A stretch of 64,000 bases of DNA, from the NCBI RefSeq assembly GCF_900107585.1, contig NZ_FNQM01000003.1, positions 248,001-312,000 on the forward strand, given 5' to 3'. Made by a program: the position numbers and the translations under genes. Positions 25,678 through 28,574 of this stretch are shown here, piece by piece. The notes below the pieces were generated by a model. The model worked only from the letters and a program-made list of their open reading frames with translations, was not told where the DNA came from and made no database searches. This DNA is from Rubrimonas cliftonensis (lineage in GTDB: Bacteria; Pseudomonadota; Alphaproteobacteria; Rhodobacterales; Rhodobacteraceae). Every line of letters begins with the position of its first letter. Position 1 is the stretch's first letter.

Positions 25678-27468
25678 ATGGGCGAACAGAAGAACATGAT
25701 CCTGGCGGCGGCGCTGAGCTTCCTCGTCATCGTCGTGTGGCAGGTGTTCCTCGCGCCGCCGCCGCCGGCGCTCAACCCCCAGCTCCCGCCCGCCGAGTCC
25801 GTGGCGGGCGCGCCGGACGCGCCCGGCCCGATCGCCGCGGCGCCGACGTCCGTCCCGCGGGCCGAGGCGCTCGCGCGCAGCGCGCGCGTGCCGATCGACA
25901 CCCCGAAGCTGCGCGGCTCGCTCTCGCTGAAGGGCGGCCGCATCGATCACCTCGACCTCACCGCCCACCGGCAGACCAACGACCCCGGCTCGCCGGCCGT
26001 GGAGCTGCTGGAGCCGACCGGCGCCGCCAATCCCTACTACGCGCTCTGGGGCTGGACGCCGGCGCGCGGCTCCCAGACGGGCCCGCTGCCAGACGCCGAG
26101 ACGGAGTGGGCGCTGGCCGCCGGCGACCGCCTCGCGCCCGGCGCCCAGGTGACGCTGGAGTGGGACAACGGCGCCGGCCTCGTCTTCCTGCGCGAGATCG
26201 CGGTGGACGAGAACTACATGTTCACCGTCACCCAGACGGTCGCGAACCGGACCGACGCGGCGCTGAGCCTCGCGCCCTACGCCATCATCGCGCGCCACGG
26301 CGAACCGCAGACGATCAATTTCTACATCCTGCACGAAGGCGCCATCGGCGAGATCGACGGGGTGCTGAAGGAGTACAACTACAGCGACATGCTCGAACTG
26401 CCCGCCGACCCCGCCGAGGGCGGACCGGTCGAGCGGCTGCCGGTCGCCAACAACGGCTGGCTCGGCTTCACCGACAAGTACTGGATGACGGCGCTCGCCG
26501 GCGGCGCCGACAGGCCGTTCACCGCCGTTTTCAAGGCCACCGGCGCCGGCCTGCCGGTGTTCCAGACCGACCTGCGCCAGCCGGCGCTCACCGTCGCGCC
26601 CGGCGAGAGCGCCTCGGCCTCCTCCATGCTCTTCGCCGGCGCCAAGGAGACGCGGCAGCTTCAGGAGTACGAGGATACGCGCGGCATCGGCGGCTTCGTG
26701 GACGCGGTCGACTGGGGCTGGTTCTTCTTTCTCACCAAGCCGATCCACTGGATGCTGCTGTTCATCCACGACATCGTCGGCAACATGGGCTGGGCGATCA
26801 TCCTGCTCACCGTGGTGATCAAGACGCTGCTTTTCCCGCTCGCCTACAAGTCCTTCGTCTCCATGTCGCGCATGAAGAACCTTCAGCCGGAGATGGAAAA
26901 GATCAAGGAGCGCGTCGGCGACGACAAGATGAAGATGCAGCAGGAGATGATCGCGCTCTACAAGCGCGAGAAGGTCAACCCGGCCGCCGGATGCATCCCG
27001 ATCCTGCTCCAGATCCCGATCTTCTTCTCGCTCTACAAGGTGATCTTTGTGTCCCTGGAACTGCGGCACGCGCCGTTCATCGGCTGGATACAGGATCTCT
27101 CGGCGCCCGACCCGACCTCCTGGATGAACCTTTTCGGCCTGCTGCCCTTCGAGACCTCGGCGATCCCCGCCTTCCTGACGCTGTTCTCGATCGGAGTCTA
27201 TCCGATCATCATGGGGATCACGATGTGGATGCAGCAGAAGCTGAACCCCGCGCCCACGGACCCGATCCAGGCGCAGATCTTCGCTATCATGCCGTTCATG
27301 TTCATGTTCCTGCTGGGCACCTTCGCGTCCGGGCTGGTGATATACTGGATCGCCAACAACGTGCTGACCTTCGCGCAGCAGTACACGATCATGCGAAGCC
27401 AGGGCGTCGACGTGAACTTCTTCGGCAACGTCAAGCGCACCTTCAAGCGAAAGCGTCCGGTCGAATGA
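25678..27468 (+). CDS. yidC: Membrane protein insertase YidC
   Basis: The 596-residue insertase places proteins into the inner membrane, alone or with Sec. It has the N-terminal anchor MILAAALSFLVIVVWQVF, a periplasmic beta-sandwich domain (about residues 60-325), and five conserved C-terminal helices starting at DWGWFFFLTKPIHW. The family blocks FPLAYKSFVSMSRMKNLQPEM and PAAGCIPILLQIPIFFSLYK are intact. Length is normal for alphaproteobacteria. Its last codons (KRKRPVE, stop) form the first part of a 32-bp tandem repeat, and the stop overlaps an ATG (ATGA) that opens the first mini-ORF of the array. Confidence 0.97.
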   Translation: MGEQKNMILAAALSFLVIVVWQVFLAPPPPALNPQLPPAESVAGAPDAPGPIAAAPTSVPRAEALARSARVPIDTPKLRGSLSLKGGRIDHLDLTAHRQTNDPGSPAVELLEPTGAANPYYALWGWTPARGSQTGPLPDAETEWALAAGDRLAPGAQVTLEWDNGAGLVFLREIAVDENYMFTVTQTVANRTDAALSLAPYAIIARHGEPQTINFYILHEGAIGEIDGVLKEYNYSDMLELPADPAEGGPVERLPVANNGWLGFTDKYWMTALAGGADRPFTAVFKATGAGLPVFQTDLRQPALTVAPGESASASSMLFAGAKETRQLQEYEDTRGIGGFVDAVDWGWFFFLTKPIHWMLLFIHDIVGNMGWAIILLTVVIKTLLFPLAYKSFVSMSRMKNLQPEMEKIKERVGDDKMKMQQEMIALYKREKVNPAAGCIPILLQIPIFFSLYKVIFVSLELRHAPFIGWIQDLSAPDPTSWMNLFGLLPFETSAIPAFLTLFSIGVYPIIMGITMWMQQKLNPAPTDPIQAQIFAIMPFMFMFLLGTFASGLVIYWIANNVLTFAQQYTIMRSQGVDVNFFGNVKRTFKRKRPVE

Positions 27469-27668
27469 CCGCCGGCAAGCGAAAGCGTCCGGTCGAATGA
27501 CCGCCGGCAAGCGAAAGCGTCCGGTCGAATGACCGCCGGCAAGCGAAAGCGTCCGGTCGAATGACCGCCGGCAAGCGAAAGCGTCCGGTCGAATGACCGC
27601 CGGCAAGCGAAAGCGTCCGGTCGAATGACCGCCGGCAAGCGAAAGCGTCCGGTCGAATGACCGCCGGG
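27445..27668 (+). repeat. Seven-copy 32-bp tandem repeat across the yidC/MOSC junction
   Basis: Seven head-to-tail copies of a 32-bp unit start at 27445, 27477, 27509, 27541, 27573, 27605 and 27637. The first six are identical and the last differs only in its final base. Each unit begins AAGCGAAAGCGTCC and carries GAATGACC, that is a stop and start fused as ATGA. The first copy is the end of yidC; the ATG of the last copy is the start of the MOSC gene. Between them the units create six mini-ORFs of 11 codons, each MTAGKRKRPVE, at 27465, 27497, 27529, 27561, 27593 and 27625. Each overlaps the next by four bases. There are no spacers, so this is not CRISPR. It looks like slippage or unequal-crossover expansion of one junction. 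Confidence 0.95.
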
Positions 27669-28469
27669 GAGCAGGCGCCGGCGCCCGGCGGCGGGACCGG
27701 CGCGAGGCGCAGCGACGCCGCGGGCGGCGCGCTGGCCGCGATCCATCGTCACCCGGTCAAGAGCCTCGGCGTCGAGGCGCTGGAGCGCGTTACGCTCGCC
27801 CCGGGCGCATGGATGCCGTTGGACCGCGTCTGGGCCGTGACGCGGGCGGGCGCGGCCTTCGACGCCGCGAACCCGGACTGGGTGGAGCCCAACAACTTCG
27901 CGCGCGTCACCCATGCGCCGCGGCTGGCCCAAGCCCGCGCCGGGTGGGACGGCGCGACGCTCACCCTCGCCCACCCCGACGCGCCGGTGCTCTCGGTCGA
28001 CCCCGAGACGGCCGAAGGCCGCGCCGCCATCGAAGCGTGGGTCGCGCCGCTCGTCGAGGACGCGCTGAGCGGGCCGTTCCGCCTCGTCCGCGCGCGCCAG
28101 CCTCTGACCGATGTCGATCGGCCGTGGCTATCGCTGCACTCGATGGCGTCGCTGAGGGCGCTTTCGGAGGCCGCCGGCAAACCGCTCGATCCGCTGCGCT
28201 TCCGCGGCAACCTGTGGGTGGAGCGGCTGGCGGCCTGGGAGGAGACGCAGTGGCCGGGCCGCGTGATCGCGGTCGGCCCCGTCAGGCTCAGGGTGGTCGA
28301 GCCGATCTGGCGCTGCGCCGCCACGCAGGCCAACCCCGACACCGGCGCGCGCGACGCCGACACCCTGCGCGCCATGCGCGAACTCGTCGGCGACACCTGC
28401 TTCGGCGTCTACGCAGAAGTGGTCGAGGGCGGGGAGATCGCGCTGGGCGACGTCGTCCTGCCGGTCTGA
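27657..28469 (+). CDS. MOSC domain-containing protein
   Basis: The 270-residue protein has an N-terminal MOSC beta-barrel region (IHRHPVKSLGVEALERV, PLDRVWAV) and the C-terminal MOSC domain with RFRGNLWV and the conserved Cys in RCAATQANPDTGARD. MOSC proteins bind sulfurated molybdenum cofactor or related ligands, as in MOSC sulfurase tails and mARC/YiiM. The exact role of this one is unknown. Its first four codons (MTAG) come from the final unit of the tandem repeat. In other alphaproteobacteria a MOSC gene also sits between yidC and engB, so the order is conserved even though the junction has expanded here. Confidence 0.93.
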   Translation: MTAGEQAPAPGGGTGARRSDAAGGALAAIHRHPVKSLGVEALERVTLAPGAWMPLDRVWAVTRAGAAFDAANPDWVEPNNFARVTHAPRLAQARAGWDGATLTLAHPDAPVLSVDPETAEGRAAIEAWVAPLVEDALSGPFRLVRARQPLTDVDRPWLSLHSMASLRALSEAAGKPLDPLRFRGNLWVERLAAWEETQWPGRVIAVGPVRLRVVEPIWRCAATQANPDTGARDADTLRAMRELVGDTCFGVYAEVVEGGEIALGDVVLPV

Positions 28470-28475
28470 GCCGCC

Positions 28476-28574
28476 ATGTCCGCACCCGAAACCCGCCAGT
28501 CCGACCTTTCAGGCGCCGCGGCGCCTACGATCCGCGGCGCGGGCGGCGCCGCTCCGGAGACCGTGCGCCCATGA
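28476..28574 (+). CDS. Possible 32-residue small ORF coupling MOSC gene to engB
   Basis: A 32-codon frame (begins MSAPETRQSD, ends APETVRP) starts six bases after the MOSC gene stop. It ends with a TGA that overlaps the engB ATG (ATGA). This fills the 101-base gap exactly. It has no recognisable family, membrane segment or strong ribosome site. It may be a translational coupling leader rather than a functional peptide; chance cannot be excluded in GC-rich DNA. Confidence 0.35.
   Translation: MSAPETRQSDLSGAAAPTIRGAGGAAPETVRP

Follow-up and report, generated by a model that had tools for sequence, protein, structure and literature searches.

How a chain of identical, minute reading frames came to lie between two adjacent genes of Rubrimonas cliftonensis, and whether it serves to tune their expression, are the questions raised by the junction of yidC with a downstream gene for a MOSC-domain protein. 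Within the 64,000-nucleotide stretch of DNA that was analysed as a whole (hereafter the window), yidC, coding for the membrane insertase (25678-27468, forward strand; Pfam PF14849, 2.9e-72, and PF02096, 3.2e-60), is followed on the same strand by an intact gene for a MOSC-domain protein of 270 aa beginning with MTAGEQ (27657-28469; PF03473, 5.1e-16, and PF03476, 8.1e-7), and these domain matches bear out the gene names given in the initial annotation. At their junction TRF recovers a 32-bp tandem array on the forward strand (27444-27667; unit CAAGCGAAAGCGTCCGGTCGAATGACCGCCGG), which scores 448 and comprises 7.0 perfect copies with 100% matches and 0 indels. As the runners-up in TRF reach only 131 within the window and 166 across 304 kb of this contig, chance can be ruled out, the array scoring far above the level at which it operates. 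The array ATGs fall at 27465+32k (k=0 to 6): the first overlaps the TGA stop codon of yidC (27466-27468), which lies within copy 1 and terminates a product ending in KRTFKRKRPVE, and the seventh, at 27657, is the start codon of the MOSC gene. The contents of the unit match both the yidC tail and the MOSC start, and the earlier claim that these had been copied in tandem is thereby upheld. The array described in that annotation exists, but the span assigned to it, 27445-27668, is one base late, and this shift accounts for an apparent base change in its last copy: the base in question is the first one after the array, and the seven copies are identical. With near-identical units arranged head to tail (7.0 copies at 100%) and a unit length inside the range of 15-100 bp given for such elements (PMC4473831), the array has the anatomy of a VNTR or minisatellite; its count of seven copies comes from a draft assembly of 4.86 Mb (98 contigs, 99.7% completeness) in which it lies on a contig of 580 kb.

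Each unit contains a single ATG and a single TGA, overlapped as ATGA, and apart from these no stop codon and no ATG, GTG, TTG or CTG. With a length of the form 3n+2 and with the only start and only stop of the unit overlapping, a chain of reading frames forms automatically, here comprising six mini-ORFs of 11 codons each, linked in the -4 register on the forward strand (27465-27500, 27497-27532, 27529-27564, 27561-27596, 27593-27628 and 27625-27660). The first is joined to the yidC stop by an ATGA overlap, and the stop of the sixth overlaps the MOSC ATG in the same way (ATGA, 27657-27660). Translation agrees with the earlier reading of six copies of MTAGKRKRPVE connected by ATGA joints, a peptide in which residues 1-4 of the MOSC protein (MTAG) are joined to the last seven of YidC (KRKRPVE). 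The generality of this geometry was assessed in silico by duplicating all overlap-spanning segments of 12-60 bp, both in a joined single-copy version of the Rubrimonas junction and in the junctions of 52 relatives. The full mini-ORF chain emerged from all 3n+2 duplications at the Rubrimonas junction itself (536/536, 100%) and from 27412 of 27872 (98%) at those of the relatives; duplications of length 3n or 3n+1 gave 0 chains across the same set. The mini-ORF register is thus a matter of arithmetic, available to one in three unit lengths, and bears no sign of design. The surprise voiced earlier over 32 being indivisible by three is accordingly misplaced, as any 3n+2 duplication across ATGA furnishes each unit with a start and a stop. 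In the same simulations any copy number of a 3n+2 unit leaves yidC and the MOSC gene both whole, so that expansions of this kind would be easily tolerated.

A comparison of copy number at this junction in related genomes, as had been recommended in the initial annotation, was run on 67 relatives, of which 66 are genomes from the family and the last is a named Rhodobacterales record. A 4-nt overlap of the yidC stop and the MOSC start is present in 52 of the 67 (38 ATGA, 14 GTGA), a 1-nt overlap in five and other layouts in the remaining ten, so that the pair displays the conserved stop/start overlap by which coupled genes are recognised; the junctions are single-copy, and none of the 67 carries a tandem array there. 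The named Rhodobacterales record, the sole match in that record search, has a single-copy ATGA overlap; together with gene order, it indicates that the family probably falls within the Rhodobacterales. The sole other genome of the same genus that was compared, belonging to a different species, shows one junction only, in which a GTG lies 7 nt past the yidC stop, so that the 4-nt overlap is not invariant. The near relatives added through a DNA search likewise have no array at the junction. Since the relatives' junctions are single-copy and devoid of arrays, the array would have arisen in the Rubrimonas lineage, most likely as a lineage-specific tandem duplication of the single-copy overlap. The earlier proposal of a recent expansion is supported both by the single-copy 4-nt overlap being the norm of the family and by the exactness of the array, which looks like a recent copying accident and not like an evolved switch. 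A search of 219 genomes of the phylum for the pattern of four ATGA at a period of 32 returned the Rubrimonas array and one other genome only (G356; L117, L119, L121), where the matches are TCCCCGCTTTCGCGGGGATGACGG-type repeats that look like common palindromic intergenic repeats agreeing with the pattern by chance.

The downstream partner seems to be dispensable in the family: of 120 family genomes, 100 contain a MOSC orthologue at E <= 1e-30 and 20 gave no match at this threshold. Several of the near relatives from the DNA search have no MOSC match past yidC in the stretch that was read, and four such relatives (L093, L096, L099 and L100) suggest that MOSC is dispensable at the yidC locus. 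The MOSC proteins of relatives have an HP(I/V)K motif about 10 codons past the start, and the N-terminus of the Rubrimonas protein (window 27657-27740) includes a Gly/Ala-rich stretch of about 20 residues that is absent from most relatives. Further downstream, a 32-codon ORF (window 28476-28574; MSAPETRQSDLSGAAAPTIRGAGGAAPETVRP) spans the gap between MOSC and engB, a gap that is much shorter in most relatives, and its stop overlaps the engB start (ATG 28571) as ATGA.

Gene ends in the Rubrimonas genome gather short tandem expansions. A survey covering 564 kb of the one contig, in which the adjoining stop codons were called by eye from translations and at least one of them (136536) is uncertain, found three perfect arrays of at least 3 copies, namely the 32-bp yidC array, a 20-bp array of 3.4 copies and one with a 14-bp unit (4.5 copies if perfect, 6.4 if variants are counted). 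The 20-bp and 14-bp arrays start at a gene's stop codon, and so do several shorter ones with periods other than 3n; a 13-bp array of 2.85 copies is among others at or just past a stop codon; altogether, all eight perfect arrays in the 564 kb with a period of at least 12 that is not 3n (8/8) lie at or shortly past a likely stop codon. The 14-bp array (L087:10209-10298; contig position 178209) has two unit variants and a period of the 3n+2 type, and starts at the stop of a gene that we take, from the look of its translated tail, to code for a branched-chain aminotransferase. Further short perfect arrays at stops or a few bases past them occur at L107:8955-9022, L107:17944-17989 (minus strand), L082:4528-4564, L085:8536-8572, L079:11912-11938 and window:49100-49131. 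The yidC array is the longest and, among the arrays examined, the one that also takes in the start codon of the next gene; the other contig arrays at stop codons form no mini-ORF chains. That other short arrays occur at stop codons on the same contig favours a tolerated recent expansion at yidC as well.

The consequences of such an expansion depend on how MOSC is translated. The SD-like energy at its start is -2.3 against a background median of -2.7 and -6.6 for engB, so that no SD-like sequence stands out above background there; the opening energy is 15.4 at the MOSC start as against 10.0 for yidC and 9.7 for engB; and no sigma-70-like promoter was found between yidC and MOSC. The weak SD-like energy and the high opening energy make strong independent initiation at MOSC unlikely. 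Coupling is reported to be most efficient at a spacing of -4 to +3 nt (PMC12548453), and 13 of the 14 overlapping pairs put to the test proved to be strictly coupled (PMC6728339). The family-conserved overlap, the weak MOSC start and the missing promoter fit termination-reinitiation, and we infer that MOSC would be translated mainly by ribosomes restarting at the overlapping ATG, formerly and now. The ribosome relay from yidC to MOSC that had been raised earlier as a possibility is likewise strengthened by the family norm of overlap and by a MOSC start with no better than background SD. Coupling should suffer sharply from a plain insertion of some 190 nt, whereas the array keeps the -4 joint throughout. 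We therefore propose, as the probable reading of this locus, a young minisatellite of an ancestral coupling junction, in which a single termination-reinitiation step was passively turned into seven, probably at the cost of some MOSC translation. Under this proposal the ancestral 4-nt yidC/MOSC overlap would have been tandemly duplicated into a young, lineage-specific minisatellite, on which ribosomes would terminate on each preceding frame and restart at the overlapping ATG; seven steps in series would replace one, i.e. six would be added, and MOSC output per yidC translation would drop, scaling roughly as e^6 with e the efficiency of reinitiation at each step. For assumed values of e this factor comes to 0.74 (e=0.95), 0.26 (e=0.8) and 0.016 (e=0.5), so that the loss of MOSC output could be small if e is near 0.95 and large if it is near 0.5. 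The 11-residue peptides would be by-products, and the array would be tolerated because no change in copy number damages either full gene and because the family can apparently do without MOSC.

The nearest known kind of element is the mycobacterial MIRU, which the array resembles in its working without being one. MIRUs (Supply et al. 1997, as described in PMC4473831 and PMC12548453) contain a small ORF oriented with the operon whose ends overlap the neighbouring ORFs, and they are dispersed in mycobacterial genomes, are without dyad symmetry and appear mobile. The six 11-codon ORFs of Rubrimonas similarly overlap contiguous ORFs in the same orientation, with ATGA at each joint (-4 nt), and added units keep the coupling. 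Their unit differs in being derived from the junction of two genes of its own host; in being shorter, at 32 bp, than the 40-100 bp stated for MIRU units (PMC2734929); and in having a 5-bp dyad round ATGA. Nor is it dispersed: in the whole genome, searched with up to 3 mismatches, the unit is present in the seven array copies only, and the array region has no match in the plasmid and phage collections searched. Had a mobile or interspersed repeat of the MIRU type inserted at the start codon of MOSC, it too would present a small ORF with -4 nt overlaps on either side (PMC12548453, PMC4473831), but a unit at a single locus of this draft genome, absent from those collections and wholly accounted for by the yidC tail and the MOSC start, makes such an origin exceedingly improbable, and an interspersed or mobile repeat was rejected. 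The rnc-fpg1 VNTR of M. tuberculosis is comparable as a lineage-specific tandem expansion in a once very short gap between genes, longer arrays correlating with changed downstream expression; it differs in starting 40 bp past the rnc stop and in its complex 55/79-bp unit, and the available portion of its description gives no chain of coupled mini-ORFs (PMC2734929). In bicistronic designs and uORF-coupled genes the stop of a short leader ORF overlaps the start of the real gene and supplies it with ribosomes (PMC12548453). These have one leader ORF as against six serial mini-ORFs in Rubrimonas. Synthetic leader ORFs of this type, moreover, have a strong ribosome-binding site of their own. Our literature search found no natural tandem chain of coupled mini-ORFs outside MIRUs.

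Other explanations of the array differ in what they make of its sequence, its count or its effect. Every unit contains a 14-nt hairpin round ATGA (CGGTC-GAAT-GACCG, -6.2 kcal/mol), which speaks for a role as DNA or RNA structure (protein sites, an mRNA stabiliser), a possibility that may be taken together with an action of the basic peptide; against this, the structure of the array is not stronger than that of shuffled sequences (z -0.8 for RNA, -0.6 for DNA), Rfam gives no match within the array (one sub-threshold match lies elsewhere) and no terminator-like site occurs in it, so that we regard such roles as very unlikely. A known RNA element was likewise rejected in view of the array having no Rfam match, as was a promoter or terminator in the array, none being predicted. 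A further doubt attaches to the count, which an assembly error could have placed above or below the true value: short reads cope poorly with a perfect array of 224 bp, and the assembly is a draft in 98 contigs. Any tandem copy, however, requires reads over a unit-unit joint, and the shorter, in-read 14-bp array (6.4 copies, 90 bp, two unit variants) suggests that real expansions occur; we hold such an error to be improbable. Slightly more credible, though still unlikely, is that 30S subunits bind the MOSC ATG directly, so that the gene is translated independently and the mini-ORFs are barely translated and functionless. Local structure at the array ATGs is indeed weaker (opening at 15-17) than the random median (18.7) and than that of the joined single-copy junction (19.5); nevertheless, the MOSC start has no SD-like sequence upstream, and the stop/start overlap, a hallmark of coupling, is conserved in the family.

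The boldest suggestion of the initial annotation was a phase-variation-like rheostat, in which slippage would vary copy number between cells or strains and so tune MOSC while sparing both genes, as a selected, translational analogue of phase variation. The architecture allows it, inasmuch as every copy-number change keeps both genes, and in M. tuberculosis the length of the tandem repeat upstream of fpg1 correlates with fpg1 expression (PMC2734929). Yet none of the 67 relatives with the yidC-MOSC pair carries the array, MOSC is a housekeeping-type enzyme domain untypical of contingency genes, one in three random unit lengths would fall into the 3n+2 register, and comparable arrays where other genes of the contig end build no mini-ORF chains. 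We consequently find no support for the rheostat and judge it distinctly doubtful, a judgement that extends in equal measure to a serial ribosome relay in which the number of mini-ORFs would set, and slippage would vary, the expression ratio of two coupled genes with no frame shift. What stands of the earlier interpretation is thus the origin of the array, its recency and the possibility of a relay; the surprise at its register, the rheostat and the changed base fall away.

Read as a young minisatellite of the coupling junction, the array is a genuine and probably recent accident with a forced and testable consequence. Its geometry is unusual and useful for the study of serial reinitiation, and neither its origin nor its register needs a special explanation. 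Even if an accident, it offers a natural test of how often a ribosome can terminate and restart serially, and the fall of MOSC output with copy number could give the per-step efficiency of ATGA coupling without a Shine-Dalgarno sequence. More generally, when a 4-nt gene overlap is tandemly duplicated, neither gene is damaged, whatever the copy number; and, because one in three unit lengths gives a chain, gene-dense genomes should show such chains repeatedly, and design should not be read into them.
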